Of a stretch of 64,000 nucleotides of DNA, positions 8,491 through 33,059 are shown one piece after another; position 1 is the first letter of the stretch, and the number at the start of each line of letters is the position of its first letter. A program made the position numbers and the translations under genes. The notes under the pieces were generated by a model. It did not search any database. It had not been told where the DNA came from and saw nothing but the letters and a program-made list of their open reading frames with translations. Location: positions 4,993,989-5,057,988 of the forward strand of contig CM042085.1 in NCBI GenBank assembly GCA_023512835.1, in the 5' to 3' direction. The stretch comes from Taxillus chinensis. Its lineage: Eukaryota; Streptophyta; Magnoliopsida; Santalales; Loranthaceae.

Positions 8491-8841
8491 CTATCTGAAG
8501 CCCTTTCTCACTCTCAGTGCCTCTGAGCGCTCGTTGCAGCTAGACCTCAAACCAAGGCCACGGTCCAAAACAGTCCCATTTCGGCACTGCTTTTTCAGCT
8601 CCAGACCGCCGTGAGCAGTAGTGTTTGGCGACGGAGCCGAGCAGATTTGTACCGGGTAGTCGTTGTTGTTGTTGATGAAGAGGTGGGTGATGTCTTGTAG
8701 CGGGATCCTAGTTCTTCTTCCAATTTTGGTGCTTTTTTTGAGAGACGACGAGCCGATGCTGCAACCAGAAGAACTGGGGTGCTGACAGAAAGGAAGCATG
8801 TTCTCCTTGTTATCTGTCTCCCAACGTTTCAGATTGGCCAT
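8491..8841 (-). CDS. Small KEN-box/D-box protein, array copy 1 (type A)
   Basis: Intronless frame of 116 residues. I take the ATG at 8841 (MANLKRWETDNKEN...) because this start is shared by the sister copies; the frame stays open to 8928 but that part is only the CA-rich leader. Visible motifs are the KEN box at 12-14, basic stretch KKSTKIGRRTR at 35-45, a D-box RIPLQDITH at 45-53 (canonical form RxxLxxIxN, here ending in His), conserved CRNGT and DRGLGL segments, and C-terminal KGFR. KEN and D-boxes are known APC/C recognition motifs. The combination suggests a cell-cycle protein degraded by, or inhibiting, the APC/C; that role is inferred. I do not recognise a named family. A two-residue insertion (VR) before KGFR is specific to this copy. 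Confidence 0.8.
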   Translation of the reverse strand: MANLKRWETDNKENMLPFCQHPSSSGCSIGSSSLKKSTKIGRRTRIPLQDITHLFINNNNDYPVQICSAPSPNTTAHGGLELKKQCRNGTVLDRGLGLRSSCNERSEALRVRKGFR

Positions 8842-9078
8842 CTTGGTATTTCTAGACCTTCGAGTGTGAGTGTGACTGTGAGTGTTACGGAAAGTGAGAA
8901 AGCGAGGGACTGTAAGTGAGGGATGCAATCATGCAATCATGTAGGCGTGAGAATTGCTGTTTTAGTAGTGTGATTTCGGGGGCGCGTGGGGGACGCGGCT
9001 ACGAACCCGATGCGATGCGAGGTGACCGTACGTAGTGCATTTAAGGTTTGAATCTGAATTAAGAGTGATTGAGTGCCG

Positions 9079-9099
9079 TTGGGCCAAATAAGCGGGAAA
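9079..9099 (-). promoter_or_regulatory. GGCCCA/E2F module upstream of copy 1
   Basis: The + strand reads TTGGGCCAAATAAGCGGGAAA. On the gene strand this is a perfect E2F site (TTTCCCGC, 9092-9099) followed by a TCP-type GGCCCAA (9079-9085), about 240 bp before the ATG. The adjacent CCGTT (9077-9081 region) gives an AACGG Myb3R core. The module recurs upstream of copies 2, 3 and 6. Confidence 0.6.
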
Positions 9100-9218
9100 G
9101 ATTTAAGATACCAAAAATAACCACCGACCTGATTGATTTGAAATTGATCTAATTTCAGTTTATATATAGCATTTGTTGCAAATTTGGAAAAAAATTCTTC
9201 ATCCAGACTCAAAGCTTT

Positions 9219-9490
9219 AGTTTTAAATCTTTACTTTCAAGCATTCTCTGCTTAGAGACTTCTCATATTCGAAGCTTCCTTTTATGAATCATTCTTCAAG
9301 TCCTTTTATATCTTGTTTGAAATCTTTGCCAAACTTTTCGACCTTGAATCCTCTCTGTTACAAGACTAGTAGCAATTAAGTCATCAACCAAAATGTGGTC
9401 TGCACTCGAAAATAGCCTGTACACTTCTTTGTTAATCATTCAGTAATCACAAGTAAATAAGTCTTCATTAAACATTTGATGGTGTAACTA
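9219..9490. repeat. Dispersed repeat, first copy (pair with 19029-19300)
   Basis: About 270 bp resembling 19029-19300 in the same orientation, sharing phrases such as CAAGACTAGTAGCAA and CTTGAATCCTCT (TTC in the other copy). I cannot classify the element. Confidence 0.6.
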
Positions 9491-9589
9491 AACAATTAAA
9501 ATATATGCTTGCACACTTCTTTGTTATTTCTGTTTGCTTTTTTTTTTTTTGTTTCTTCTTTTTTTTTTGTGAAATAAACAATTAAAATA

Positions 9590-10370
9590 TATGCAGAAAG
9601 TAGACAAGCCAGAGAGTAAATGCCAGACCAGGGAACAGGAGAAGGCGCGAGGACTAACCAGAACAGATCAGACAAGAGATGATAGACCAGAACACCAGGA
9701 CCGATTGAACAGACCAGGAATCACGCCAGAAACCAGACCAGAAACTAACCTGGACCGGATGTCAGAGCAGGGGCCAGATGCTGTGCCTAGACCAGAAACG
9801 AGAGGCTAACCACACCTGATTTGGAGTCAGGTTCCTCATTCAAACCATTATTAATGCAGATAAGAATGCAATGGCAGCAGACAATTTCTACCCAACAGGA
9901 CAAGTGTGACGGTGTCTTTATCCCCCTAAAAAGAAACAAATGATGTCTGTTTCTCTCTTGATTAAAATTGAGGGTTTAAACCCAACAATAGAATCATTCC
10001 TCTCCTGCCTATCTCTCCTTTTATTACATGAAAAAAAATCAAACAACTCCAGATGATTAACCCAGCCCACACAGCCTTCAAACCAGAATTTAATGAACCT
10101 AGACAAAAACCAACCCAGTCCCGGAATTCTTCTTCAACAACTTCAATTCACCCTTTAATTCAGCAGTTTAATTCATCATTTTTAAATGGCCTAGACAGAA
10201 ATCAACCCAGTCCTGGGGTTTTTGAAACGGAGTGCAACAAGGGACAATGGGACAGATGTTGGGGCTGTAAAGGCTCTGCTCGTTTTGTTTTGTTTTTGAT
10301 GTGTTCAAAGATAGTATTCTGTCAATTTCTCAATCCCCTTTTAGGATTTAAGGATGAATAAAAGATGTAA
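9590..10370. repeat. Unclassified repeat-like region rich in CCAGA
   Basis: From 9600 to 9810 degenerate CCAGA/ACCAGAC motifs recur many times and give an open but low-complexity frame. Later, two imperfect copies of CCTAGACARAAAYCAACCCAGTCC occur at about 10096 and 10190. It looks like part of a mobile element, but no retrotransposon or transposase domain is readable. Confidence 0.4.
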
Positions 10371-11040
10371 GGATTTTATTTTTTGTACTGCAATTTAAAC
10401 AACTAAGTCTGCATGGTATAACATTAAACAGAGCACATAGTCGGCATGGTATAATAGATATTTAGGGCTTTTGGTGATTTATTGCAATTGTCAATGGCCT
10501 TCAGCGAATTTTTAAAAGGAAATAAGCAAGTCAAAGCAGCAATGGCTAGCTTCCGTACCAGCTGACAAGTCTTTATAGGTCATGCAACTAGACCAAGGTA
10601 TTCAATCTGTACAACGTGTAGCTGCAGCGTATGATGGCAACATCTTTTAAGGAAGAATAAAAGGCGACACTTTCATTAAACCCAGGATTGATACTAAGGC
10701 TCTTGATTAAGCAATTCTGTTAGAAAGCATAAATCGAGAAGAGAGAAAGAGGGAGCAGGGGAGCCATAGGATGCAGTCAAAATAGCAAAACCACATGGAA
10801 ATAAAACAAAACGAATCACAATTCTACTTGATCAAACTTCAATCCATCAGGAATAGACTAATAATTTGGTAACCATAGCCCTACATAATAATAATGTTTT
10901 TATTTTCATCACTCATTAAATTAAATATAATAATCCAGAATCTACAAATCAATTCTACGAGCCTTAACCTTAAACTTTAAATAACAAACACATTAAATAT
11001 TTACATTATATAATTTTCCCAACAAACAATGAGGAATGAG
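10371..11040. other. Spacer and 3' flank of copy 2
   Basis: No gene. From about 10860 the sequence aligns by eye with 22130-22265, the 3' flank of copy 5, which supports a block duplication. Confidence 0.6.
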
Positions 11041-11381
11041 CTATCTGAAGCCCTTTCTCAGTGCCTCCGAGCGCGCGTTGCAGCTAGACTTCAAACCGAA
11101 TCCGCGGTCGAAAATAGTCCCATTTCGGCACTGCTTTTTCAGCTCGAGAGCGCCGCGAGCGGTGCTGTTTGGCGATGGAGCCGAGCAGGTCTGTACCGGG
11201 TGGTCGCTGTTGTTGACGAATTGGTGGGTGATGTCTTGTAACGGGATCCTGGTTCTTCTCCCAATTTTGGTACTTTTTTTGAGAGGCGACGAACCGATGC
11301 TGGAACCAGAAGACTGGGCTGCTGACAGAAAGGAAACATGTTCTCCTTGTTATCTGTCTCCCAACATTTCAGATTGGCCAT
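11041..11381 (-). pseudogene. Small KEN-box/D-box gene, copy 2 (type A), frameshifted
   Basis: The reading begins as in its sisters (MANLKCWETDNKEN...) with the KEN box intact. One base is missing in a run near 11311-11313 (AGAAGACTGG where copies 1, 3, 5 and 6 have AGAAGAACTGG). This shifts the frame after about residue 23. Past the shift, the original frame remains readable to the conserved D-box and the terminal KGFR, with no second lesion seen, so the inactivation is probably recent. The shifted frame gives a protein with a KEN box but no D-box and no Phe-Arg tail. Arg6 is Cys here. Confidence 0.8.
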
Positions 11382-11578
11382 CTTGGTTTCTCTGGATCTT
11401 CGAGTGTGAGTGTGTGTTACAGAAAGCGAGAGACTATAAGCGAGGGATATGCAAACGGGGGAGGGACCAAAGGAGCGCATATGTAGGCGTGTTACAGAAT
11501 TGCTGTTATGGTAGTGTGATTTCGGGGGACGCGGTGCACTTAAAGGTTTGTATCTGAATCAAGAGTGATCGAGTGACG

Positions 11579-11600
11579 TTGGGCCGAAATAAGCGGGAAT
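11579..11600 (-). promoter_or_regulatory. GGCCCA/E2F-like module upstream of copy 2
   Basis: TTGGGCCGAAATAAGCGGG at 11579-11597, continuing AAT. On the gene strand this gives ATTCCCGC (one base from the E2F consensus) plus GGCCCAA, about 200 bp before the ATG. Confidence 0.5.
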
Positions 11601-11619
11601 GATTTACATACGTTGCCAA

Positions 11620-12590
11620 AAATGATATGCGTCCACACCACCAAGCGTTGCTTTGTAATTGATCTAGTTTCCGTTTATGGTATTGGGTGCAATTTTGTAA
11701 AACATTTATGACTTTCTAATTTTATCGTCAGTAATTAATTGGCAGATTGAAAGTCAATTTATCCTCATTGCATTAATTAAAGTCTCTCCATTATTGATGA
11801 CGGCATCAGTATTGGAATAATTTATTCTGTTGGATCTATATTTAGGTTTTTGCAAGAGAATTTGGCTATGTTGGAATGAATTATTAAATGAATAAAATTA
11901 ATATTAAAAATAAAATAAAAATTTTAATTTTCTTTTCCATTTGGTATATAAGAACCACCAAGATAATGTATTAAGGTAATTATTAAAATATTCTCATAAT
12001 TATTAATTTTTATTAAATGAAATCTTTTTTTTTTCTCTCATCTTTTCCAGTGAACACAGCAGGGGTTGCGAGGGAGATAAGGTGGTAGGGGCAATAGGAG
12101 GGAAAAGGGGGTGACAAGGGAGATCAGTGGCGTTAGGGGGAGAGGGGTGGCGGCGAGAGGAGTTATAGGTGAGACAGTAGGGTGCGTCGGGGGGAGAAAA
12201 AAAAAAAAAAAAAAAATATTAATATCAGTTGTATTTTTTCAAATGGGAAAATGCATCAGGGCAATGCACATATAGCATGGGTGAAAGTTGTATAATGAAA
12301 TTTTAGGGATTTTCAAAAAATTGCCTACATAGTTCTTTGTATTTTTATATAAATTTAAAGTATTTCTTTTATCAATTATTAATATAATATTATTATTTTA
12401 ATTTTAAAAATTAGTGAAAGAGACGATAGATGAATGTTTTTGATTATCATTACGTTGATCTCAAACAGGAAAAAAATATTTATTATGTATTATTTTTGGT
12501 ATTATTATTACTAAAAGCTACATATTTAATATTTTAGGTATTTCAACACTAGTTTTTTTATAATAATTTTCATTAAGGTTCTAGAATAGA
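11620..12590. other. Upstream flank of copy 2, with a G-rich tract
   Basis: 11620-11830 resembles 22835-23065 upstream of copy 5. A strongly G-rich stretch at about 12055-12195, with many GGG runs on the + strand and ending in poly-A, could form G-quadruplexes; a similar G-rich core occurs at 46440-46500. No gene. Confidence 0.5.
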
Positions 12591-13890
12591 TGTGTCTAGT
12601 TGCACATATGTAGACAAACAAACTCAACGAAAAGAGCCGAACACAAATACTAAATTATCATATAGGCCATTGTTAGGTGCAAGGTTAATAAATGTTCGTC
12701 AACTTATTTACGAATAGCACATGAGAATCTAAAGGCACAGAAGGCTGTGTGAAGGCGTTCAAATGGCTAGACAACATAGACATGATTGGTATTGGGTTGA
12801 ACTTAGTTTTTAATAAAATTTCTCACTTACCTAATCTTAAGGATGGTAATTCTAGCCCAATTCAGGTTGTTTTAACTTGATCCGCCCGAAGAAATAATGG
12901 GGTAGCCATAGGTATTGGTCGATCCAGCCTTTTATTATGTTTAAAAGTAATTTTAACTTAAAATATCTGCTCCAACTTGACTCAATCGCATCCTGTTGTG
13001 CTCTTTAATCTTATCTCGTCCTGACCCAAACTCACATGGGACGGGTTCAGATCACTACTATTTAGTCTTAACCCATCCTATTATTATCTCTACCTAAGTT
13101 GATGATCCTAACGAAAAAGTCAAAGTTATTATAGAGAATTGAAAGGTGGTGTTCAGCAGCCATAGTGTTATTATGTTTAGGCATGAAATCAGGTGACTAG
13201 CCATACAATTGATAACAACGATCAACAACATGCCTTGCAAATTTACAATGTGTCCAATATTGCAATATGAGTGATCTTTCTTTGGGTTCATGAAGGCATT
13301 AACTGCATGCAGATTTGATTAAGTCATAGCTTCCTCGCTTGAAGGAACTTATCTTCATGACAAAAGTAGCAGATCAAGTGTGACTACTGATAGTTGGATG
13401 TGAATTAGCTTGATGTTTCTCTTCCTCTTGTATAACCATATAAATGATCCAATTGATAGAGGGCATAGGATCCATAAGAAAGATTTGACCCTGAACAAGA
13501 GAAAGGTTTATCAAGGCCTGTTAAGAAAGACATCAGATATTCTATATGGTGATAAACAATGATGTTTTTCACATTCCCACATGTGCAGTTACTGTATGAA
13601 CATCTAGGTCTATAGTTGTTGAGTTCTTCCCAAATTGCTTTAAGTTCTATGAAATATATGCTAACGGAGACTTTTCCTGTCTGAGATTTACCAATTAAAA
13701 AAACTTTGCTTATTGGAAACTTTTTCGATAATTTAAATGTCATATCTCTCCAGCAGATGTTGTATATATGATGTTGGCAAGATGTCCTTGAAAACGGAAT
13801 TTTGGATCCATGAGATGACTATTTTGTTGCGAGCCCAAAGGTTTAAGGAACTTGAGCTACGATATGTACGTAAGGACTAACAATGGAGCT
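12590..13890 (-). mobile_element. Decayed Ty1/copia element, gag part and trace of protease
   Basis: On the - strand, 13743-13405 gives a copia gag signature (ELKAIWEELNNYRP, a Cys-rich CSYSNCTCG segment, EYLMSFLTGL). 13291-13100 carries a broken CCHC zinc knuckle, readable only with frameshifts and stops (GHIV...CYQLYG). Near 12640-12590 there is a trace of the protease region, GATRHI-like, closely resembling 24210-24165. The gag-to-protease order fits - strand orientation. Confidence 0.75.
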
Positions 13891-14336
13891 ATCAACGAAC
13901 CATAACTTTTTCTTTACCGATAAAGCTACCAATATTGCGCCACACCCACTAAGCATAGTTTTCTCCAATAAGTAAATGGGAGATGCAAATAATAAGAGTT
14001 TTAGGAATCTTCGCAGTTTTGCATAAAGACCCTCGTGGGGCGCATGAACAAAAAGGTAGGTAAGGAAAGAAGAAACTTGGTGGGTTAATCTTGTAGAGGA
14101 AGAATAGAGGAGATGTTATTACGATTATGTGTTAAAAATACAAATCAATCAATGACCTTTATACATGGCATACGAAGACCCGATCAGTAGTCGGTGTAAT
14201 TGCTGATATACCCTTAATAAATTAATCGTGATATCTTTACTTGGTAAATGATTATTTGATATCGGAAATTAATGTTATCCTAGTTTTCAATGGCTTTGTT
14301 AACGAAGATTCAGAATAAAATTTTAAAGACCATAAT

Positions 14337-14377
<41 letters not shown>

Positions 14378-14545
14378 CTGATAGCATTTTTAATTTACTT
14401 ATCAAATTAAATATAATATTTAAATATTTACACAGCATAACAATTATATCCTAACATTTAAAACTTCAAAATTTTAATTTAATATCAATAAAATTTTGAC
14501 AACATATTTAATATTTACGTGATGTAATTTTTCCAACACAATGAA
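13891..14545. other. Leader-like flank of the copia relic and 3' flank of copy 3
   Basis: 14000-14190 resembles 24370-24500 next to copy 6 (both contain TGTTAAAAATAC followed by a similar 60-bp stretch). A TA microsatellite lies at about 14339-14376. No gene. Confidence 0.55.
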
Positions 14546-14890
14546 TTATCTGAAGCCCTTCCTCAGTGCCGCTGAGCGAGCGTTGCAGCTAGACTTCAAG
14601 CCAAGGCCACGGTCCAAAACAGTCCCATTTCGGCACTGCTTTTTCAGCTCCAGGGCGCCGTGAGCAGTAGTGTCTGGCGACGGAGCCGAGCAGATCTGTA
14701 CCGGGTAGTCGTTGTTGCTGTTGATGAAGAGGTTGGTGATGTCTTGTAGCGGGATCCTAGTTCTTGTTCCAATTTTGGTACTTTTTTTGAGAGACGACGA
14801 GCCGATGCTGCAACCAGAAGAACTGGGCTGCTGACACAAAGGAAACATGTTCTCCTTGTTATATATCTCCCGACGTTTCAGGTTGTCCAT
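14546..14890 (-). CDS. Small KEN-box/D-box protein, array copy 3 (type A)
   Basis: Intronless, 114 residues. The N-terminus is altered (MDNLKRREIYNKEN): the conserved Trp7 is Arg and Thr9-Asp10 are Ile-Tyr. Even so, the KEN box at 12-14 and the canonical D-box RIPLQDITN at 45-53 are intact, as are the CRNGT and DRGLGL segments and the terminal RKGFR. Together with copies 4 and 7 it has the consensus Asn at D-box position 9. Its 3' flank carries the copia relic, as for copy 6. Function is inferred, as for copy 1. Confidence 0.8.
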   Translation of the reverse strand: MDNLKRREIYNKENMFPLCQQPSSSGCSIGSSSLKKSTKIGTRTRIPLQDITNLFINSNNDYPVQICSAPSPDTTAHGALELKKQCRNGTVLDRGLGLKSSCNARSAALRKGFR

Positions 14891-15126
14891 GTCGGTTTCT
14901 CTAGATCTTCGAGTGTGACTGAGTGTGTGTTACAGAAAGTGATCGTGTGAGACTGTAAGTGAGCGATGCAGATGAGGAAGAGACCACCGAAGGAGTGTAT
15001 ATGTAGGCGTGAGAATTTCTGTTTCCGGGGGCGCGTGGGGGACGCGGATATGAACCCCCGACACGGAGCGAGGTGACCGCGGTGCATTTAAGGTTTGAAT
15101 TTGGATCAACAGTAAATGGGGAGACG

Positions 15127-15145
15127 TTGGGCCGAAATAAGCGGG
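15127..15145 (-). promoter_or_regulatory. GGCCCA/CCCGC module upstream of copy 3
   Basis: TTGGGCCGAAATAAGCGGG, identical over 19 bp to the modules of copies 2 and 6, about 237 bp before the ATG. The base after CCCGC on the gene-strand side does not complete an E2F site. Confidence 0.5.
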
Positions 15146-15179
15146 CCTTGCAACCGCTAGCGCTGACTTTCTAATCCAT

Positions 15180-16640
15180 TTAATTTTCATTTATGGTATT
15201 GTTTGCAAATTTGTACAAACCTTTATGTCTTTCTAAATTTGTCTTCAATAATTAATTGGCTAATTGAAAGTCGATTTAACCCATTGCATTAATTAAATTC
15301 TCTATTATTTATTGATGACGGCATTGTATTGCTGGAAGAATTTATTTTGTTGGTTTCTCTTCTTAGGTCTTGGCAAAATAGTTGTGTTCTAAATACATTA
15401 ATTTCGTTTTATACTTTTTACTACTTTTTAAATACATTAATGACGCTCCCGAGATTAATTAATTCCATCAAGAATGTGAGACCTTAACTTGATTCAAATG
15501 CACTTCCGGAAAAATCCAAACAAAACCAAACCAAGTGAAACCACTAAGTTATTGAATCTTGGGCTTAATGTAGAGATGTTGGCATTAAACCAAATCATAT
15601 TGAGTAGAGTCATCAATTCTCTCAATTGATTTACACATTTGTTTTAGTTTAAATGACTTTTTGGTTTGTTTTTTTTTTTAAACTTATAAGACCTAAGTTT
15701 CTTGTAGTAAAGTGTTGATGATGTTTTAAATAAAAGAAAACAGTTATCATAATTATTATATTTTGGTCTAAGTAATTGTGAATAAATATTAATTATTCAA
15801 TTCATGGTTTCTTGAACCAATTTTTTTAGAAAACTATTTTTTCTTTTTATTATTTATTGATGATGGCATTGGATTGATGGGAGAATTTATTTGTTGGTTT
15901 CTCTACGTAGGTCTTGGCAAAATATTTGTGTTCTAAATGTATTAATTTTGTTTTATTCTTTTTACTAATTAAAGTAGGACATCTTTCACCCATTGGATCA
16001 AATGAGATTAATTAATTCCATCAAGAATGTGAGACCTTAACTTGGATTCAAACGTAGTTGGAGAAAAATTCAAACAAAAAATAAAGAACAAAACGACAGA
16101 AGTCTTAAATTAATTGTTAACATGATGAATACATCATGTAGCATCAAGCTTCCAAACACAAGAAGCACTATTTAATTCATATACTTATTAAATTTTATAT
16201 ATATATATATATATAAATCTCATAATAAAAACAAATAATATATAGAGTAATTTATAAAACCTATTATATATATTCATATAAAAAAATAATAATAATTTAA
16301 AACATTAAACAGTTAGTGTCAGGAATATTCCTCTTGGAATATGAGCCTTGTCAACCCGCATGAAAACATTAAACAGTTTGTGTCAGGAATACGAGACTTA
16401 CTCACTTGTGTACTATCTCGTGCGGTGCGAGGGAACAAGCCTTACACCCACCCTGTTTCCCGCTCACATACAGATATCTCGTATTGTATGAGAAGAGGTT
16501 ACCGTCCTGGTGGGCAGGTCACCTTCTCTCAATTCGGTCCAGTACACACTTGACTCACAAGCTAATACACAAATTAGCCGGCGTAACCCAAGCTTGGTAC
16601 ATCATCGAATTGATAGTTTGATACCATACAGGCATCCACG
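15180..16640. repeat. Upstream flank of copy 3 with internal duplications
   Basis: 15300-15560 and 15850-16080 are imperfect copies of each other (shared TTATTTATTGATGA and GGTCTTGGCAAAATA). They also resemble 11800-11860, 23005-23070 and 25620-25790. A 29-bp direct repeat (AAACATTAAACAGTT...) occurs at about 16299 and 16363. No gene supported. Confidence 0.55.
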
Positions 16641-17230
16641 ATTTTAGCTCAACTAGAGGTAGACCTGTTTTTCCAGCGGACCACCCCACAAACAGCAATT
16701 ACCAGATCCAGAAATTCAGCAACATTTCGTGGGCGAAATTTGGGTCTCGGCCTGGCCTACGGATACCTGCTAAAATTGTAGGGAAGGAAGGATAGAGGAA
16801 CAACAAAAAGAAGCCCTTGAAAATGCTTGTACCTCCTCCATATTTAAAGCTCTCTTTCAATCCTTAAAAAAAAATAATACTATGTAAGCTACCTTCATTG
16901 ACCTTGTGTCTCACATTCCCTAGTGCAATTTTGTTTCCAATTTTCTTAAATAGGGTTTAAGTTCAGTAAAAATTTCATTCCCACTTTGAATTAGTACTGG
17001 GCTCCACCGGTTTGATATGTAAGTTAGATTAGAGCTAAATCTTTAGTAAGAGCATGCAGTGTCGATAGGTCACGTACAGTTGCAGTTGATTCAACATCCC
17101 TATATATAGTGAAGCGAAATGTATACAGAGCTTTGGTTTGTGGGCAACAAATTGCGTCCGCCACAGCAAATTACAGAGGCTGTAATTCAATTCGCATGAT
17201 ACATATAAATAAATATGAAGCAGCGAGCAG

Positions 17231-17578
17231 CTATCTGAAGCCCTTCCTCAGTGCCTCCGAGCGCGTGCTGCCGGCAGACGACGACTTCAGGCCAAGGCCA
17301 CGATCGGAAGCCACCCCATTTGGGCACTGCTTTTTTTTCAGCTCGAGGGCGCGGGGAGCAGTGTTGTTTGGAAACGGAGCCAACCGGACATGTACGGGGT
17401 TGATGTTGCTGACGTAGAAGTTGGTGATGTCTTGTAGCGGGATCCTCGTCCTACCATTTTTTTTGTTGCTGCTTTTGAGAGTCGACGAGCCTTTGTTGCC
17501 GCCGCCCGAACTGGGGTGACTGCAGAAGGGAAACATGTTCTCCTTGTTGTCGGTTTCCCATCGTTTGAGGGCAGCCAT
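17231..17578 (-). CDS. Small KEN-box/D-box protein, array copy 4 (type B)
   Basis: Intronless, 115 residues, starting MAALKRWETDNKEN. The KEN box is at 12-14 and a canonical D-box RIPLQDITN at 45-53, then CPNGV and DRGLGL segments and the terminal RKGFR. Type B (copies 4 and 7) differs from type A in the linker after the KEN box (SSGGGNKGSS, KSSNKKNG) and in the middle (YVSNINPVHVRLAPFPNN), while the short motifs are kept. Such a pattern, variable linkers and fixed motifs, is typical of a disordered protein acting through linear motifs. Promoter has TATA and MSA sites. Confidence 0.82.
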   Translation of the reverse strand: MAALKRWETDNKENMFPFCSHPSSGGGNKGSSTLKSSNKKNGRTRIPLQDITNFYVSNINPVHVRLAPFPNNTAPRALELKKKQCPNGVASDRGLGLKSSSAGSTRSEALRKGFR

Positions 17579-17701
17579 TTTGGTGTGCCTCTGATTTTCT
17601 ATTAGTGTTTGTTGCTGAGAGAGAGAGGTACGGAGAGAGGGAGAGAGACGGTGTGAAAGAGCGATAGGAATATTGGAGCCGTTACTACGGACGGTGCTGT
17701 G

Positions 17702-17708
17702 TTTTATA
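17702..17708 (-). promoter_or_regulatory. TATA box of copy 4
   Basis: TATAAAA on the gene strand, about 125 bp before the ATG; the same site stands upstream of copy 7. Confidence 0.55.
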
Positions 17709-17767
17709 GTGTGATTTTGGGAGTACCCGTGCTAGGCGCGGGTATGAACCGATGGGGTCGAGTGACG

Positions 17768-17778
17768 TGACCGTTGGG
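17768..17778 (-). promoter_or_regulatory. MSA element (Myb3R site) of copy 4
   Basis: The gene strand reads CCCAACGGTCA, a perfect match to the MSA consensus YCYAACGGYYA that drives G2/M expression of plant B-type cyclins. It lies about 190 bp before the ATG and 60 bp before the TATA box. A second AACGG core lies at 17826-17830. Confidence 0.65.
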
Positions 17779-18319
17779 CTTAGGAAATTTGAATTTGGGT
17801 TAAAACTTAGACGAGAGAAATTGAGCCGTTGAGGGGAAGCAAGCCACGGATGAGATGACTCACAATCATTAATAAAATGAGTGGATTGCGCTCCCACCCA
17901 TTTTGTTTTGTTGATTTTAATAAATACATAAAATGTAGTTCTTTTTTCTTTTTTTCTTTTTTTCTTTTACATATTTTTTCTATTTGAATTTTTTTAAAAT
18001 ATTATTGTTAATATAGATTTTAACGAAAATAATGCACTTCGAAAGAAAATTATTTAAATTATAACAATACAACAATCAAACAACAATATTATATTGGTAA
18101 TAGTAAGGAGCCAACAAACTCAAGATAATTTAGTGAAATGAGGAGGTAATATGATAATCGGATTTATAATGTCATTTAATAATGTATTATATTTAATGGT
18201 GATTATTATGATGCTTTATTATTTCACTAAAATATCTTAAATTTGTCTTAGCACTATCCACTTATATTTGTTTGTCCACATATATAACTTTTTATTATTA
18301 TAATGTACATCTATGTTTA

Positions 18320-19028
18320 TTTTTATAAGGTATAGGTCCAAGTGTTGCAATATTTTTCATTTTAATTTGTCATATTGGCCTGCATTTTTTAAAATACGTG
18401 GTGATAATGCCGGGTCTAATCCATCATATAAATCTCATTGGATTTTTTTTATTTTTTTCAATGTTGGATAATTTTCTAATAATTTCTCTATTCTCATAAA
18501 ACCATGTCATAGGAAGGAAATGAACTAAGCTGTTACCATGTGGGACGTTATGAAATTTTCCTTGCAGTTTCTTTTTAATTCAAATCTTCATTGAAATTCT
18601 ACCAGTTCGATCAAGGCTTGTATTGCAATCTAATACCATCACACACTACGAGACACGCTATTCGATCACACCATACTAAGAAGACTTTAGATATTATAAA
18701 ACACATTTTTGAAGACAATTAAGCTCTGATAACACTTGTTAGGAATTGAAATTAGGTGCGGGCCCACCCTTATGTCATGATACTGTCTGTTTTGGATTCG
18801 TCATATCGAATCACACAACTTTAAAATGCATCGTGACAATTTCGGGCCTAATTTGTCATATAAATCTCATTAGTTTTTCTTATTATCCTTGATATGAAAC
18901 AATTTCCCAACTACAAGTGCTATCATAATGTGGTGGTTGTATATTCATATATAATAATTATTGTATATATTATCACATGCCACAATAAACAATGTTTTAG
19001 ATATATTTCAAATAAATTCTTTTTGCCT
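18320..19028. repeat. Spacer with a repeated ~120-bp segment
   Basis: 18380-18490 and 18800-18910 resemble each other (both contain CATATAAATCTCATT and a CGGGYCTAAT phrase). No gene. Confidence 0.5.
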
Positions 19029-19300
19029 TTGTTTTAAATTTTTACTTTCAAATTTTCAATTGAGACTTCTAGAATTCAAGCTTTCTTTATGGATCACTTT
19101 TTCAAGTTTCTTAATATTTCAATACTTCCCAATTTCAAATCTTCTTTGTTGCAAAACCTTTCTACCTTGAATTCTCTTTATTTCAAGACTAGTAGCAAGT
19201 CACCAATTAAAATATAGTCTTGATTGAAAAATAACTTGTACACCTCTTGGTTAATTATCCAATAATTACACTTAAACAAGTTTTCATTAAAAGTTTGATG
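19029..19300. repeat. Dispersed repeat, second copy (pair with 9219-9490)
   Basis: Same orientation as the first copy, with scattered differences and indels. Confidence 0.6.
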
Positions 19301-19489
19301 GTATATATATAAAACCAAATCCATGAACCAACAACATAAAAGCTTTGAGAGATATTTTTTATTCTCATGAATCAATATTTATTCTCATTATTGAGAGATA
19401 TTTATTCTTGATTTATTTTAGTTCTCAGTTATTATTCTTTAAAAGAAGAAATTCGTATAAAGTTTGACAGTAATCTAAAACTGTTTTGT

Positions 19490-20900
19490 TAACGGTAAAC
19501 TAAAAAATAACACGGCATGTCAAGCCAACAGGGGACGCCTAGCCAAACTATGACATGCCCGTAGGGCAAAAATAAAGACAGGGACCCCTTTGCCCTCATT
19601 AGAACCCCAAAAAGGAGTAGCCCTAGGATACCACAGCCTTTCCGAAAAATAGACAAAGAAAACAAAACAAATAAACCATAAGAAATAAACAAAAATTAAG
19701 CAGCAGTCCTGATCAAGGAAGATTTGCAAAGTCAAAAGGAGGCTTTGTCCAAAGCGCTGCCCGCAACTCCAAAGAAACCTGCAGCAAGGGAGAAGCAAGG
19801 ACACAAAAGAATGAAAGAAAGAAAACAAAACATAACATACCTGATGGGAGGAGGCAACAGCACCATCCTAGCCTGAACAATGGGGAGGATGATGAAGCCG
19901 CTCGAGCAAAAGCCTTAGACAAAAACCCAGAAACAGAAGCCACGGTGGTGAATATTGAACAACCCAACTGGCCCGGTTCAGCACTCTTTGGGAGGAACGC
20001 GAAAAGCACCCCAGGCAAAGAGAAGCCTTAATAGATAAGGAGTGCATGAACCAGCCAGCAAGGGCGCCCCAGTAATATATGATAGAAACCTCAACAAAAG
20101 CACAAGTGGGATATAGGCACCCTCCAGGAACGCCCAGTAAGCCCTATGAAAGTCCAACTGATGATATAAAAGGATGCCCTTCCCAAACCATCATAATTAA
20201 ATTTCAACCCAAACAAAGGAACATCCTATTTAACCCACCGACCATTGGGGATATGACAGTTAAGGATGGGAAAAGTAAGAAGGGAGAGGGCCCTGATGTC
20301 ACTGCTTGTAGGAATAGATCGAATCCAAGCCATAGACAACATGAAAACAGCAAGAGATTTCAGACGAGCAATAACATGGGTATGGGAAAAATTGAAACTA
20401 GCATATATAAATTCATTCTGAGCAACGTATATAATCCAAGGAATAAGACGTCCCAATGATATACGCAGAAGCCCAAGTTGGGAATTGGGCATCCACGCAT
20501 TTAAGAAAGGTTGAAATTCACTGCATGGCTTGGTAAATCCAAATAAACGCCCAAAGAAAGCCTAAAGGAGAGAAGCCAGCTCACCATTAAGCAGAAGGCG
20601 ATCGAGGGATTCCTCCTTGGGAAAGGAATAACACATGGACTTGGAAGCAAAGAGAGACACCACGTTTTTGGTAGCTCACAAACATGCCAAGACCTCTATT
20701 ATAATCCTTCAAAAGAAAAAGAGTACTTGTTTTGAGAGAATTGACCGAGTGCCAAATAAACGTATAGATGGGATCCTCTTTGTGCGGGTTCAAGAAAAAT
20801 TTAGAAGAATGTGGGTGTAAAGGTAGGCCTGGCTGCCCAAGAGAGGTCAGCATCAGAGGCGGGTAAAACAGCTTCTGGGCCCTGTGGATTCACAACAGCA
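19490..20900 (-). mobile_element. Possible decayed non-LTR retrotransposon remnant
   Basis: The base composition (less AT-rich) differs from both sides, and longer broken frames lie on the - strand. 20492-20400 reads LLRISLGRLIPWIIYVAQNE, weakly like the VYHIWQERN segment near the C-terminus of plant LINE reverse transcriptases. No catalytic motif is readable, so the assignment is tentative. Confidence 0.3.
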
Positions 20901-21879
20901 GTACTCTGATATTAACCCACGGGGACAATGTCCTCCCTGCTGCCAGGGCCTGATGAGAATGAATACTAGTGGGGAGTAGTGAGATGAATTTTGGGCTCAC
21001 GCTCACCATTTAGAGTGTCAGGCAGTTTAGACAAATAAAAAAAAAGGGCCAGACCGACCTACAAGAGCCATAGCTTTGTAACGTTATTAGCTGATACACA
21101 TCTAAATATATCCATACACAACATTTCATACATGATACCTCGTGTCATTGCTTTGTTCTAGTTCTTCAGCTAGTATTATTAAAAGGAAGAAAGTCTTATA
21201 AAAGTTATGAAGTATTTGGTTGATTATAAAGCAAAAGACAATCCAGTGTTAATATTATACTTATCACGCCTTCTAAATTCTAATAAAGTTTGCTTTCCAC
21301 CTTTTTGTTTTTCCAACTTTGGTTTAAGGGTATTTTCTGCTTGGGGACTATTTCAACAACACCCCTGCCCCTCTTTCTTCCTTCTAATTAAGTATAACTA
21401 AGTTTAAAATATACCTAAAAATTAATATAGACAATTACTCCTCTCAACGTCCAACCATTTAATTTTTCTTTCCTTCAAACTCACTCGTTGTATTTATAAT
21501 AAAAAAAATACAATAAAAGTAGGCGCTTGACTGCTTTTTGTTGGTATCGTATATTGGCTTGTATTTTTTTATTTTTATTTTATTTAATATAATTCGTTCT
21601 TTACTCTACCCAAAAATCTCTCATTCCCGCACCATGGTACTCCCCAAAAGCAATACATCCACAAAGGATGGAATTGCATCACCATTAGGCTACTCATGAA
21701 GTATATTAATTTGCTTGTATTTGATATATAGATTCTTGCAATCTAAGTTAATTTTACCATGTTCCAATTCTAAAAAAGGAGTCGCGTTCTCAGTGTGACA
21801 TAAATTCGTTTATATACAATAACTAGAGTTGTCATCCATTGCGGTTGAACTTGAATAAAAAAGGCATAGACAAACACTA
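20901..21879. other. Spacer
   Basis: No supported gene or element. AT-rich, with short open frames only. Confidence 0.5.
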
Positions 21880-22106
21880 TCCATTGTTTACGTCCCCTCC
21901 CATAAACAGAAGCAAAACGTATACAACAATTTTGATTTGTGGACATCGAATTGCATCTGCCACGACAAAATACAAAAAAACTATAATTCAGCATGTAACA
22001 TGTTTATTTATGTGAAGCAATGAGCTATCTGAAGCCCTTTTTCGATCAGTTAGTCTCATTTGGGCACCGCTTTTTCAGCTCGAGAGCGCCGCGAGCCATG
22101 TTATTT
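21880..22106 (-). pseudogene. Fragment of a type B small KEN-box gene
   Basis: 21900-22018 resembles the 3' flanks of copies 4 and 7 (GTATACA...TTTGTGG, GCATCTGCCACGACAAA). 22021-22106 contains the last codons (GFR stop), an internal deletion, then the LELKKRC region in type B form (TTTGGGCAC rather than TTTCGGCAC). Everything further upstream (D-box, KEN box, promoter) is gone. It abuts the 3' flank of copy 5, marking a breakpoint of the block duplication. Confidence 0.7.
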
Positions 22107-22267
22107 TGCTTTCGGGTTGTGATCTTCTAAAAATCTGATAATCATAGCCCTATGTAGCATAATAATATTTTTATTTTCATATTAGCCCTATCTTAACCTT
22201 AAACTTTAAATAACAAGCATATTAAATATTTACATTATATAATATTTTCCCAACAAACAATATTGAG

Positions 22268-22600
22268 CTATCTGAAGCCCTTTCTTAGAGCCTCCGACCT
22301 CAAACCAAGTCCACGGTCGAAAATAGTCCCATTTCGGCACTGCTTTTTCAGCTCGAGAGCGCAGCGAGCAGTGCTGTTTGGCGACGGAGTCAAGCAGGTC
22401 TGTACCGGGTAGTCGTCGTTGTTGTTGTTGTTGATGAAGAGGTGGGTGATGTCTTGTAGCGGGATCCTAGTTCTTCTTCCAATTTTGGTACTTTTTTTGA
22501 GAGACGACGAGCCGATGCTGCAACCAGAAGAACTGGGCTGCTGACAGAAAGGAAACATGTTCTCCTTGTTATCTGTCTCCCAACGTTTCAAATTGGCCAT
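22268..22600 (-). CDS. Small KEN-box/D-box protein, array copy 5 (type A)
   Basis: Intronless, 110 residues, starting MANLKRWETDNKEN. The KEN box is at 12-14, a D-box ending in His (RIPLQDITH) at 45-53, with an expanded Asn run (five) after it. A block of about eight residues between DRGLGL and RSEALRKGFR, present in the other copies, is deleted in frame. The upstream region lacks the GGCCCA/CCCGC module that stands before copies 1, 2, 3 and 6, so the copy may be differently expressed or silent. Confidence 0.78.
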   Translation of the reverse strand: MANLKRWETDNKENMFPFCQQPSSSGCSIGSSSLKKSTKIGRRTRIPLQDITHLFINNNNNDDYPVQTCLTPSPNSTARCALELKKQCRNGTIFDRGLGLRSEALRKGFR

Positions 22601-22609
22601 CTGGGTTTC

Positions 22610-23159
22610 TCTAGATCTTCGAGTGTGAGTGTGTTACAGAAAGTGAGAGACTGTGAGTGAGGGATGCAATCATGCAAACGAGGGAGAGACCAAAGGAGCG
22701 CATATGTAGGCGTGAGAATTGCTGTTTTAGTAGTGTGATTTCGGTGGCGCGTGGGGGACGCGGATCTGAACCCGACGCGAACCGAGGTGACCGTAGTGCA
22801 TTTAAGGTTTGAATCTGAACTAAGATGCCAAAAATGATATATACGTCCAGTCCACCCCACTTAGCGTTGCTTTGTAATTGATCTAATTTCCGTTTATGGT
22901 ATTGGTTGCAATTTTGGAAAAAAAATTATGACTTTCTAAATTTATCATCAATAATTAATTGTCAGATTGGAACTCAATTTAACCTTATTGCATTAATTAA
23001 AGTCTCCATTATTGATGACGGCATGGATTGTTGGGATAATTTATTTTGTTGGTTTCTCTACTTAGGTCTTTGAAAACCCAGCTGTAATATGGCCAATGTA
23101 GATTGTAGACACAAAAGCAAAACACCCACAGACGCGAAAAATATTGTAATCAGGGATTG
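22610..23159. other. Upstream flank of copy 5
   Basis: Resembles 11390-11860 upstream of copy 2, except for a gap of about 45 bp after 22820 where the promoter module should be. No separate gene. Confidence 0.6.
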
Positions 23160-24412
23160 TGTGATGCAGTAGGTGGGAAGGTCTTTGATTTTTCAATGAC
23201 AAAGGGATTTCTGCTGATGATAAAAACCAGCAATAGAATGCAGTTTGACCAAAAGCTTATTGACAGTTTAGACTAGAAGAAAAGAGAGTGGGCGACATTG
23301 AGAAGCTGTTGTTGATGCTTGAGTTCAACCATCGAATTTTGTTGGGGTCTCTCCACACAGCTATACACAGGAGAATTGATGCAGCACTCCATGAGTCTTG
23401 AATATTTTGTGAAAGATAGTTATGGCACATTGTCAGACTCGAACGTTTTAATAATGGCATGAAACTGAGTTGAGATAAGTTGAAAGAATTGAGGTATAAC
23501 AGTAAGTGCATCAGATTTGGGTTTCAGATAGTATACCCAAGTGAAACGGATACAGCCATCCACCAAAGTCAAGAAATAACAGTATCTCGTGTATGAGGCA
23601 ATTGGATATAGTCCCCAAATATCACAACGTACCAAGTCAAATATTGGAGATGCAGCAAGTCAGTTATGTGACTAAAATAGAAGTCTCCTTAATTTATTTA
23701 GTCATGGGGCAGATATAGCAAGGCTTGGAACACCGATAGTCCACACTGAAGCTGAGTTTTCAAGTGATTGAATATCTTGAAGGACATGTGACCAAGATGA
23801 TGATGCCAAGTGAAGACAACCACTGAGTTGATGATCTCAGAAGAAGTGGAGGAAAAATGATGACCATTTAAGATATAGAGACTTTGTATCTTACTACCCT
23901 TGCCAATAATCTTCTTGGTTGAAGCATCTTGAATGAAGAAACCTTTACGGGAAAATTTCACTGTCATAGTTTTATGTACAAGCAAGGCAGTGACTGACAA
24001 CAAATTCAACTCGAATTGAGGGAAGAACGAAAGATCCTTGAGAATGGTATCTATGTGTAGCTTGATATTGCCAGCAAAGTGAACTACAATCTCAGAATTG
24101 CATGTTAAGTAGATGCACTGTCATGTTGGGAATGGAGCGGAGTGATGTAAAAATGCTTGCTTTAGAACAAATGTGTCTAGTTGCACCTGTGTGAACAATC
24201 CAACACAGTTCAGTTTTGAGGGTGGAAGTTAAGGATACAGAGAAATAGATGGCCACACGATAGTTATCGGGGGGGGGGGGGGGGGGGCTGGTAGTGGGGG
24301 GCGTTAATCTTGTCACTCTGATGCCATTTTGAGGTTTGCACACACTAAACACCAGTGACAAAAACGAAAGCAAGAAGTGAAAGACGGGAAGAGACGAGCT
24401 ATATATTGTCAT
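23160..24412 (-). mobile_element. Decayed Ty1/copia element, protease to integrase
   Basis: On the - strand, in order: protease (CWIVHTGATRHICS, 24225-24170; the family has D-S/T-G, here H-T-G, so the catalytic Asp is lost), the GAG-pre-integrase segment HHLGHMSFKIF (about 23790), and integrase core (IWGLYP, YFLTLVDGCIRFTWVY, FFQLISTQF, ESDN, 23620-23430) running on with stops to about 23170. Gag, reverse transcriptase and RNase H are not readable. Partner of the relic at 12590-13890. Confidence 0.85.
24269..24287 (+). repeat. Poly-G run of 19
   Basis: Uninterrupted G19 followed by GGTAGTGGGGGG, inside the copia relic; the length is likely unstable. Confidence 0.9.
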
Positions 24413-24630
24413 TACTATTATCTGTTAAAAATACGGTTCAGTCAGCGACCTTCATATATAGGCATATAAAGACTCTATTAGGGATTAGTATAATTCCCCA
24501 TTTACCCTTAATAAAATCAAATTGATTATATATAGTAGTCTATACAATAATTATACACTTAAACTTTAAATTTTAATAAAAATGATACAATATATTATTA
24601 TATTTAATATTTACGTCATACAATGTTTAG

Positions 24631-24975
24631 TTATCTGAAGCCTTTTCTCAGTGCCTCTGAGCGCGTGTTGCAGCTAGACTTCAAACCAAGGCCATGGTCC
24701 AAAACAGACCCATTTCGGCACTGCTTTTTCAGCTCCAGAGCGGCGTGAGCAGTAGTGTTTGGCGACGGAGCCGAGCAGATCCGTACCGGGTAGTCGTTGT
24801 TGTTGTTGATGAAGAGGTGGGTGATGTCTTGTAGCGGGATCCTAGTTCTTCTTCCAATTTTGGTACTTTTTTTGAGAGACGACGAGCCGATGCTGCAACC
24901 AGAAGAACTGGACTGCTGACACAAAGGAAGCATGTTCTCCTTGTTATCTGTCTCCCAACGTTTCAGATTGGCCAT
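24631..24975 (-). CDS. Small KEN-box/D-box protein, array copy 6 (type A)
   Basis: Intronless, 114 residues, starting MANLKRWETDNKEN. KEN box 12-14, basic stretch KKSTKIGRRTR 35-45, D-box RIPLQDITH 45-53, conserved CRNGS and (D)HGLGL (Arg changed to His relative to sisters), terminal RKGFR. The 5' leader contains a long GTGAGTGT-type microsatellite (about 25000-25035). Its 3' flank shares the copia leader sequence with copy 3. Function as inferred for copy 1. Confidence 0.8.
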   Translation of the reverse strand: MANLKRWETDNKENMLPLCQQSSSSGCSIGSSSLKKSTKIGRRTRIPLQDITHLFINNNNDYPVRICSAPSPNTTAHAALELKKQCRNGSVLDHGLGLKSSCNTRSEALRKGFR

Positions 24976-25249
24976 CTTGGTTTCTCTAGACCTTCGAGTG
25001 TGAGTGTGAGTGTGAGTGTGAGTGTGTGTGTGTGTGTTACAGAAAGTGATTGTGTACGTGAGATGGTAAGAGAGCGATGCAAATGAGGGGGAGACCGAAG
25101 GAGTGTATATATGTGGGCGTGAGAATTGCTGTTTAATTTAGTAGTGTGATTTCGGGGGCGGGTGGGGGACGCGGATATGAACTCGAGACGAAGCGACGTG
25201 ATCGTTGCGCATTTAAGATTTGAATTCGAATACAGTGTGATTGAGAGAC

Positions 25250-25268
25250 TTGGGCCGAAATAAGCGGG
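25250..25268 (-). promoter_or_regulatory. GGCCCA/CCCGC module upstream of copy 6
   Basis: TTGGGCCGAAATAAGCGGG, identical to the modules of copies 2 and 3, 275 bp before the ATG. Confidence 0.5.
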
Positions 25269-25269
25269 G

Positions 25270-25980
25270 ATTGCAAAAATGTTATACTTCCAAGTCCAAC
25301 CACTAGCGTTGACGTTTAATTGATTTAATTTCCATTTATGGCATTATTTGCATTTTTGTAAAAACATTTATGACTTTCTAAATTTGTCTTTAAACATTAA
25401 TTGGCTAATTGAATAAATTCCCAAAAAAATAAGATATTAATTTTTGGGTGTTATGAGGTGGATGATATTTATCGATGACACGTGCACGCCTGTAATGAGA
25501 TTTTGTAGATTGTAAACCTTAGACCTGTGGGATAGGAAGAGAGTATTGTAAATTCTAAAAACAAAAAAATGAAAGCCTAGTTAACGTTGTGGCATTAATT
25601 AAAGTCTAGTTAACGCCTATAATGCATTAATTTTGTTTCACTGTCTTTACTAATTAAAGTAGGACATCCTTTTGATCAAATGAGATTAATTAATTTTATC
25701 AAGGATGTGAGACCAGTTTTAAATAGGATTCTAACAACCCAAGTGAAACCAATACCAACCCAAGTGAAACCATTAAGCTATTGAATCTCGCGCTTAACAT
25801 GGGGGATATGCTGGCGCCAAACCCGACCATCCTCCCGGTTACACCACCCCGACCATGGACGAGCACCAGGCTCCAACCAAACCCCCGGCGCACCCTGCAA
25901 TTCATGGCCACGATTGTGCATGCAGGTCACCATAGAAAGAACAAGACAGCAGATCTCAATACTCAGAAATCTTAAAATGA
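25270..25980. other. Upstream flank of copy 6
   Basis: Shares segments with the upstream flanks of copies 2, 3 and 5 (for example near 25330-25420 and 25630-25790). A more GC-rich stretch at 25800-25950 is not recognisable. No gene. Confidence 0.5.
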
Positions 25981-25983
25981 TTA

Positions 25984-26250
25984 TTAATACAACCCATCCA
26001 ACTCCAGCACCCCTGCAATCACAACGGCGGGACCTTTCTTGAAACAGTCACATGTGGACTTTTTGGTTTCTTCATATTCAGTAATTAAGGAATTGCAGTG
26101 GATAATGTTATGCTTAAACGCGTGCCAATTCATCCAGGTGCTAGAGCCGAAAGACCCACCCCCACATACCTTCAAGGGCCATTTGCTGATGACGAAGGAG
26201 GCCTGAGTGTGCCTGCGCTGGGGTTCACCAGCTGTGAAAATTGGTGCCAT
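25984..26250 (-). CDS. Unrecognised 88-residue open frame
   Basis: Open frame beginning MAPIFTAGEPQRRHTQ on the - strand, of mixed composition with five Cys. I recognise no family, and only part of its surroundings is shared with the copy 4 duplicate near 16650. It may be a captured exon or chance. Low support. Confidence 0.2.
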   Translation of the reverse strand: MAPIFTAGEPQRRHTQASFVISKWPLKVCGGGSFGSSTWMNWHAFKHNIIHCNSLITEYEETKKSTCDCFKKGPAVVIAGVLELDGLY

Positions 26251-26697
26251 GGTGTGAAACTTGTTACCCAGATTTAGAAATTCAGCAATATCATCACCAA
26301 CTCTATGAAGATTTTACTCAGCACCCTCTAATAATTGTGGAGAAGGACAGAGGAAGAACAAAAAGAAGTCCTTGAAAATACTCGCCCCTCGCATCTTTCA
26401 ATCCTTAATATGCAAGCTAGCTTCATTGATCACGAGTCTCACAATCTTAGTACTGGGTTCCACCGGTCTGATATATAAATTAGTTAGATTAGAGCTAAGT
26501 CTTTAATTAAATTTTAGTCAAGAACATATGCAGTATCGAGATCACGTAGAGTAGCAGTTGAATCGACATCTCTATATATGGAAACGAAATGTATACAAAA
26601 CTTTGGTTTTGTGGGCAACAAAATGCGTCCGCCACAACAAATTACAGAGGCTGTAATTCAATTCGCATGATACATATAAATATGAAGCAGCGAGCAG

Positions 26698-27045
26698 CTA
26701 TCTGAAGCCCTTCCTCAGTGCCTCCGAGCGCGTGTTGCCGGCAGACGACGACTTCAGGCCAAGGCCACGATCGGAAGCCACCCCATTTGGGCACTGGTTT
26801 TTTTTCAGCTCGAGAGCGCGGTGAGCAGTGTTGTTTGGAAACGGAGCCAACCGGACATGTACGGGGTTGATGTTGCTGACATAGAAGTTGGTGATGTCTT
26901 GTAGCGGGATCCTCGCCCTACCATTTTTTTTGTTGCTGCTTTTGAGAGTCGACGAGCCTTTGTTGCCGCCGCCCGAACTGGGGTGACTGCAGAAAGGAAA
27001 CATGTTCTCCTTGTTGTCGGTTTCACATCGGTTGAGGACTGCCAT
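26698..27045 (-). CDS. Small KEN-box/D-box protein, array copy 7 (type B)
   Basis: Intronless, 115 residues from the ATG at 27045 (MAVLNRCETDNKEN). The frame stays open to 27111, but sister copy 4 begins at this ATG. KEN box 12-14, canonical D-box RIPLQDITN 45-53, CPNGV and DRGLGL segments, terminal RKGFR. Trp7 is Cys, the change most different from copy 4; elsewhere the two type B proteins differ at only a handful of positions. Promoter has a TATA box and a perfect MSA site. Confidence 0.82.
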   Translation of the reverse strand: MAVLNRCETDNKENMFPFCSHPSSGGGNKGSSTLKSSNKKNGRARIPLQDITNFYVSNINPVHVRLAPFPNNTAHRALELKKNQCPNGVASDRGLGLKSSSAGNTRSEALRKGFR

Positions 27046-27129: not shown

Positions 27130-27136
27130 TTTTATA
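27130..27136 (-). promoter_or_regulatory. TATA box of copy 7
   Basis: TATAAAA on the gene strand, about 85 bp before the ATG. Confidence 0.55.
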
Positions 27137-27195: not shown

Positions 27196-27206
27196 TGACC
27201 GTTGGG
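27196..27206 (-). promoter_or_regulatory. MSA element (Myb3R site) of copy 7
   Basis: Gene-strand CCCAACGGTCA, a perfect YCYAACGGYYA match, 150 bp before the ATG. A second AACGG core lies at 27260-27264, at the same relative place as in copy 4. Confidence 0.65.
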
Positions 27207-27750
27207 CTTAGGAAATTTGAATTTGAATTTGGGTTAAAACTTAAAAGAAAGAAATTGAGCCGTTGAGGATGAGATGACTCACAACCATTAATAAAAATAG
27301 TACAAAGACAACTAATGAAATGAGTGGATTGCAGTCCCCAACATTTAATTTTACACATTAAATGTATTTACTAATTTATTTTTTATTTAATAAATACATA
27401 AAAATGTATTTATTTATTTATTTATTCTATTCGACTTTTAAAATTATTTTTGTTAATATAGATTTTAATGAAAATAATGCACTTCAAAAAGTAAAGTATT
27501 TAAATTATAATTATATTGGGTAATAGCAAAGAACCAGGCAAACTCAAGATCATTTATAGTGAAATGAGGAATTAATATGATAATCATGATTGGATTTGTA
27601 ATGTCATTTAATAATGTATTATATTTAATGGTGATAATTATGGCACTTTATTATTTCACTAAAATAACTTAAATTTGTCTTATCATTATACAATAATATT
27701 TGTTTGTCTATATAATTTTTCACTATTACAATGTATATTTTGATTTATTT

Positions 27751-32998: not shown

Positions 32999-33059
32999 TT
33001 GTGATTTGTGTTGGGTCTTGCAGGTACTACGTCTCGTATGGTGAAAACTTCACCTGCTA

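Follow-up and report, generated by a model that had tools for sequence, protein, structure and literature searches.

The array of small genes in Taxillus chinensis

The stretch of Taxillus chinensis DNA studied here (contig CM042085.1, positions 4,993,989 to 5,057,988, 64,000 nucleotides; hereafter the window, whose own numbering is used throughout) contains an array of small genes within 8491-27045. The array, which is entirely on the minus strand, consists of six intact open reading frames (ORFs) of 110-116 amino acids together with a frameshifted copy and a remnant. The encoded proteins carry a KEN box, a destruction box (D-box) and a C-terminal Phe-Arg, and they are considered here as candidate regulators of the anaphase-promoting complex/cyclosome (APC/C). 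A preliminary description had reported six open copies and a frameshifted one on a single strand. The ORF list and tblastn searches, in which each of the six ORFs was compared with the 64-kb window, agree on this arrangement, to which the remnant is now added. The same description called the genes intronless; this holds for the ORFs, and the 5' untranslated region may contain an intron.

The copies fall into two types with a protein identity of 60-64% between them. The differences lie mainly in the linkers, as had been reported. Type A comprises A1 (8491-8841, 116 residues), A3 (14546-14890, 114 residues), A4 (22268-22600, 110 residues) and A5 (24631-24975, 114 residues). The N-terminus of A3 has diverged with its KEN box retained, and A4 has been shortened in frame ahead of the tail. 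Type B comprises B1 (17231-17578) and B2 (26698-27045), both of 115 residues. The frameshifted seventh copy (11041-11381) is a type A pseudogene that was matched in two tblastn frames (11381-11313 and 11283-11044), and its frame was lost between residues 23 and 34. A C-terminal piece at 22051-22117 is followed by a segment (21909-22039) that matches the 3' flank of both type B genes; therefore, this scrap is probably what is left of another copy. The remnant as a whole (21909-22117, found by tblastn), with its type-B-like 3' flank, lies directly downstream of A4.

In a DNA tree built from the proximal upstream and coding sequences, three pairs are joined: B1 and B2 (support 100), A4 and the frameshifted copy (79), and A3 and A5 (77). 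The tree fits duplication of a B-A-A' block together with one extra A copy. The order of the type A copies is not settled by the coding sequences alone, for which two topologies lie within 0.4 log-likelihood units (lnL). Broken copia-like pieces are present between A4 and A5 (23698-24412), including one weak gag_pre-integrs match below the curated cut-off, and they may have mediated the duplication.

Three motifs shared by all open copies

Without exception, the six open copies have KEN at residues 12-14, RIPLQDIT at residues 45-52 and RKGFR at the C-terminal end; position 53 of the D-box is Asn in three and His in the other three. The motif positions given in the preliminary description, including the D-box ending in Asn or His and the C-terminal GFR, are thus found in every open copy. 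Calculated from the ORF coordinates, the KEN box is encoded at 27004-27012 in B2, 17537-17545 in B1, 8800-8808 in A1, 14849-14857 in A3, 22559-22567 in A4 and 24934-24942 in A5. The D-box, which reads RIPLQDITN in B2, is encoded at 26887-26913 (B2), 17420-17446 (B1), 8683-8709 (A1), 14732-14758 (A3), 22442-22468 (A4) and 24817-24843 (A5). The C-terminal Phe-Arg codons occupy 26701-26706 (B2), 17234-17239 (B1), 8494-8499 (A1), 14549-14554 (A3), 22271-22276 (A4) and 24634-24639 (A5).

When the six proteins were shuffled 200,000 times at constant composition, KEN, the D-box core R..L.[DE][ILV] and a hydrophobic-Arg end came together once (5e-6); the single motifs appeared at rates of 3.0%, 1.0% and 1.75%, respectively. 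The window contains 87 ATG-initiated ORFs of at least 60 amino acids. Six of them are the family and one, a frame of the broken copy, was excluded; among the 80 others neither KEN nor a hydrophobic-Arg end occurs, and the D-box core occurs once. Since the copies are paralogues, their agreement in the motifs does not represent six independent events. The degron consensus sequences are RxxLxxxxN and KENxxxN with variable surroundings, according to PMC6534075. The identification of KEN, D-box and hydrophobic-Arg tails as APC/C-binding elements, on which the preliminary description was built, is in line with PMC3406007, PMC6534075 and PMC7271329.

A further conserved block, LELKKQC.NG...D.GLGL, is located at residues 80-98 of A5 (24682-24738), and the same block is present in the other copies. 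Its sequence RGLGL resembles an RxL cyclin-docking motif; A5 has HGLGL instead.

Selection on the coding sequences

The six ORFs are genes under purifying selection, which is focused on the degron and tail segments. In a six-taxon codon model with one ratio (M0), the ratio of nonsynonymous to synonymous substitution rates (omega) was 0.42, and a value of 1 was rejected (2 delta lnL 15.4). A two-class model assigned an omega of 0.10 to the motif segments and 0.55 to the remainder (2 delta lnL 20.2); the segments used, residues 11-17, 43-53 and 108-114, are wider than the motifs themselves and were first picked because they looked conserved, so the test was not blind. Among the strict motif residues, 13 of 14 are invariant, compared with 60 of 114 overall (p ~0.002 by random placement of segments of equal size). 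Moreover, all 8 distinct gaps in the coding sequences are divisible by 3, whereas the same holds for 14 of 53 gaps in the upstream and 11 of 35 in the downstream sequences; these counts were taken from pairwise comparisons of the six open copies and are not all independent events. The evidence for constraint therefore consists of the codon and gap statistics and not of the agreement among paralogous copies. The same statistics rule out chance ORFs.

The branch between types A and B has an omega of 0.30 and the within-type, recent branches have 0.56, where neutrality was not rejected (2 delta lnL 3.6); allowing separate branch rates gave no significant improvement over a single rate (2 delta lnL 2.2). 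The copy pair A1-A5 reaches 1.08. The preliminary description had named ratios near 1 among the copies as a result that would speak against it. The overall ratio is significantly below this level; the recent branches come part of the way towards it, and this one pair reaches it. Consequently, some type A copies may be relaxed. Taken together with the frameshifted copy and the remnant, these values could also point to a decaying or non-functional local duplication, in which the motifs were inherited from one ancestral gene and are now unused. We consider this to have very little probability, because six copies have stayed open with every coding gap in frame, and the branch between the two types has a low ratio, with the caveat on separate rates given above.

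Promoters of the two types

The mitosis-specific activator (MSA) element has the consensus YCYAACGGYYA. An exact element (CCCAACGGTCA) is present upstream of both type B genes on the minus strand, at 17768-17778 (-200 from the B1 ATG) and at 27196-27206 (-161 from the B2 ATG). Both elements are in the sense orientation, and a TATA-like box follows each of them 70 bp downstream, at 17703-17708 (-130 of B1) and 27131-27136 (-91 of B2). This equal spacing in both B copies is a further point against decay of the array. Extra AACGG cores on the same strand lie upstream of B1 at 17826-17830 (-252) and 17679-17683 (-105) and upstream of B2 at 27260-27264 (-219), so that both type B copies have an exact MSA with 2-3 AACGG cores inside 400 bp. 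Exact matches to the consensus occur three times in the 64 kb, where 0.23 occurrences are expected; the third one (48638-48648) is inside an ORF just upstream of a glutamate-receptor-like coding sequence. The MSA contains the AACGG core and is positioned near the transcription start, as described in PMC10905365.

Within 400 bp upstream, no MSA with up to one mismatch was found in any of the four open type A copies or in the frameshifted copy. On the basis of these promoter sequences, the type B copies are predicted to be G2/M-expressed genes, and the type A copies are predicted to have another timing or weak expression. E2F-like TTCCCGC sites were noticed at 9092-9099 upstream of A1 and at 11593-11599 upstream of the frameshifted copy, and the other five start codons had none within 400 bp.

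Searches for relatives

None of the six copies reaches a curated cut-off in Pfam; DUF5563 (E 0.23) and PH_trem (E 0.2) stayed below it and were dropped. A search of the PDB with one copy gave no match at E up to 10, and the matches of the profile, GRINL1A (E 0.059) and RBMS1 (E 0.13 and 0.3), were taken as chance. In the protein database, where the search was limited to proteins of 0.55-1.75 times the query length sharing several exact words and E-values refer to 5.8 billion sequences, no match was obtained with one copy (7 candidates, E up to 0.01) or with the six-copy profile (2680 candidates, E up to 1). Such length and word limits would leave out any relative that is longer or that shares only the motifs. 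Plants are covered by this database, as a UVI4-type query returned 422 proteins, and many of the 120 listed are named POLYCHOME or GIGAS CELL1 and come from flowering plants. A scan of prokaryote genome contigs gave 73 stretches matching the pattern, none of them a relative, as would be expected if the gene is of plant origin. A text search of the literature gave no match for six peptide strings of the family, and no description of such a family was found among the titles and abstract starts listed. Sororin was set aside as a candidate: the Arabidopsis protein has four exons and 222 residues, and no KEN box was found in it according to PMC11148194.

Comparison with OSD1/GIGAS CELL1 and UVI4/POLYCHOME

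The family and the plant proteins OSD1/GIGAS CELL1 and UVI4/POLYCHOME share one order of elements: a GxEN or KEN box, a D-box of the form R.PL.D[IV][ST] and a C-terminal hydrophobic-Arg dipeptide. The D-boxes among the 120 listed relatives include RTPLRDITA (37), RTPLRDITH (22) and RTPLQDITA (3), and compared with RTPLRDITH, the family D-box has seven of nine residues equal in its His form and six of nine in its Asn form. Around the first box, Arabidopsis GIGAS CELL1 has GRENMP where the family has NKENMFP. KEN takes the place of GxEN in the family, and it is found in 2 of the 120 listed relatives. Their tails are MR in 108 cases, LR in 3, FR in 2, IR in 1 and other in 6. The FR-ending relatives are from Cucurbita maxima and Cucumis melo, and Phe-Arg can therefore be regarded as a natural variant of the OSD1/UVI4 tail.

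These likenesses could indicate that the family is a shortened, fast-evolving descendant of OSD1/UVI4, with the D-box pair RTPLRDITH and RIPLQDITH, the pair GRENMP and NKENMFP, the motif order and the rare FR tails as its marks. However, an hhalign comparison of the six-copy alignment with 18 of the 120 listed relatives aligned only 14 D-box columns (probability 8.6%; E 0.0039, which refers to a single pair comparison), and no homology beyond the short motifs was detected in it. The blocks RDR near the start, RAIE after the D-box, L.NSID and VRTLM, which are invariant or nearly so in the alignment of the 18 relatives, are absent from the family. The distance from KEN to D-box, taken with the same measure, is 34 in the family and 22-33 in the 77 listed relatives in which both boxes were matched. 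OSD1/UVI4 proteins are mostly 220-300 residues long, whereas the family proteins have about 115 residues and form a tandem array of six. Descent from OSD1/UVI4 was rejected since the D-box alone aligns, and we consider it very improbable. At most, judging from the motifs, the family may work like OSD1/UVI4 without being a detectable member.

OSD1 and Mes1 have KEN or GxEN, the D-box and the MR tail in the same order (PMC3406007). The D-box and tail matter for OSD1 function, and the GxEN box is dispensable for its meiotic function (PMC3406007).

Comparison with other known systems

Mes1 of fission yeast has a size of about 100 amino acids. It resembles the family as a small protein with KEN, a D-box and a hydrophobic-Arg tail, a combination found in six of six copies; unlike the family it is a meiotic yeast protein with an MR and not an FR tail, and the two were likened by description and not by sequence. 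Toward Fzr1/Mfr1, Mes1 acts as a pseudosubstrate, and toward Slp1 as a competitive substrate (PMC6534075); its tail had not yet been tested when PMC3406007 appeared. Across kingdoms, the known APC/C inhibitors Emi, Mes1, Mnd2, Acm1 and OSD1 show no conservation (PMC3406007).

The mechanism of Acm1, the Cdh1 pseudosubstrate inhibitor of budding yeast, is not known to involve a C-terminal tail. This protein is a motif-built coactivator blocker like the proposed role of the family, and it differs by an additional ABBA motif (PMC6534075). An Hsl1 piece is reported to remain bound to APC/C-Cdh1 for much longer when it has both KEN and D-box than when it has one of them (PMC8764033).

The plant securin PATRONUS1 has RSS1 as its counterpart in rice; it is about 190 amino acids long and is not known to end in a hydrophobic residue followed by Arg. 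If the family were securin-like, the N-terminal KEN and D-box would time its removal, and the C-terminal part would inhibit separase. The boxes of PATRONUS1 are at about residues 14-16 and 46-54, with nearly the same spacing as in the family. However, PATRONUS1 is longer, the comparison was made by description and not by alignment, the family searches returned no protein within their thresholds, and the terminal Phe-Arg would be left unexplained. We regard a securin-like role as improbable. PATRONUS1 has a DEN-box and a D-box, comparable to the KEN box and D-box of the family, and it is nuclear and found in dividing cells (PMC4536785).

Nek2A shares with the family the C-terminal hydrophobic-Arg dipeptide, KEN and D-box (PMC7271329). 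Its MR tail sits in the Apc8A pocket that also takes the Cdc20 IR tail (PMC7271329). In contrast to the family proteins of about 115 residues, Nek2A is a dimeric kinase and a substrate.

Proposed function

The best explanation, in our view with about an even chance of being right, is that the family binds the APC/C as OSD1 and Mes1 do, as a competitive inhibitor and eventual substrate that is unrelated to OSD1 by sequence. KEN and the D-box would occupy the WD40 face of a CCS52/CDC20 coactivator, while an IR-tail pocket of the APC/C core would receive the C-terminal Phe-Arg. The bound protein would compete with true substrates and would finally be ubiquitinated itself. Repetition of the B-A-A' block would raise the dosage; G2/M expression is likeliest for type B, and type A may be partly relaxed. 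The disorder of these proteins, their binding to the APC/C, their expression at G2/M, their inhibitory effect and their final destruction are inferred. AlphaFold2 with the six-sequence alignment gave a mean predicted local distance difference test score (pLDDT) of 52.5 with no residue at 70 or above, which is consistent with a disordered motif carrier; however, this low score is weak evidence of disorder because the input was limited to six close sequences.

The principal alternative is that these proteins are ordinary cyclic APC/C substrates. The degrons would then time their destruction at mitotic exit, Phe-Arg would be an extra docking element, and the LELKKQC...GLGL block would carry the function. 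KEN and D-box are near the consensus, the third block is conserved (residues 79-98, omega 0.37 in the codon model), and the MSA promoter suits substrates as well. The MR tail of Nek2A also marks a substrate (PMC7271329). On the other hand, the three APC/C motifs are the best conserved parts, with block 79-98 less constrained than the motif segments (0.37 vs 0.10), and no recognizable domain was found in Pfam. We regard this alternative as a real possibility, clearly short of an even chance.

The proposed role has to be weighed against several results. The degrons would suit a plain substrate just as well, and the proteins contain lysines; the LELKKQC...GLGL block could be an effector. KEN is not a mark of inhibition, since the corresponding box of OSD1 is dispensable in meiosis. 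FR tails are rare, with 2 among the 120 listed OSD1/UVI4 relatives. The points made above on the recent branches, on the pair A1-A5, on the choice of motif segments and on the input to AlphaFold2 belong here too. The MSA is lacking in type A, and it counts as one event in type B because the two B promoters are duplicates. Moreover, AACGG cores as such are no more frequent in the window than expected (63 observed vs 69.4 expected). The preliminary description had suggested a pseudosubstrate inhibitor or a cyclic substrate. This reading is partly supported by the demonstration of genes, the motif-focused selection, the MSA in the B copies and the OSD1/UVI4-like motifs, which do not divide inhibitor from substrate.

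A further-reaching reading is that a lineage-restricted plant family independently reached the complete three-motif plan of OSD1 and Mes1, in a protein consisting of little besides these motifs, and was tandem-amplified as a dosage-tunable APC/C brake. We find this plausible, at somewhat less than an even chance. If true, the set of KEN, D-box and tail in this order would have been arrived at repeatedly, and plants would offer a natural protein of about 115 residues for dissecting coactivator and tail-pocket binding. Control of the APC/C influences endoreduplication, cell size and meiotic exit, so the copy-number expansion would offer a testable connection between gene dosage and ploidy traits.

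Neighbourhood of the array

At lower window coordinates than the array, B-lectin, S-locus and PAN receptor domains are encoded (3.7-5.3 kb). On the other side follow a Mg-chelatase subunit I (30-31 kb), a glutamate-receptor-like gene with its receptor and channel domains (49-52 kb) and a peroxidase (56 kb). Such a set of neighbours points to a flowering plant. Judged by eye, the ORFs at 32627-33049, 37546-37995 and 58058-58459 resemble the N-terminal parts of two Nudix-type hydrolases and of a D-aminoacyl-tRNA deacylase; Pfam gave no match for any of the three. A perfect 420-bp direct repeat is present at 639-1475 (639-1058 and 1056-1475), which is either a recent tandem duplication or an assembly artefact.

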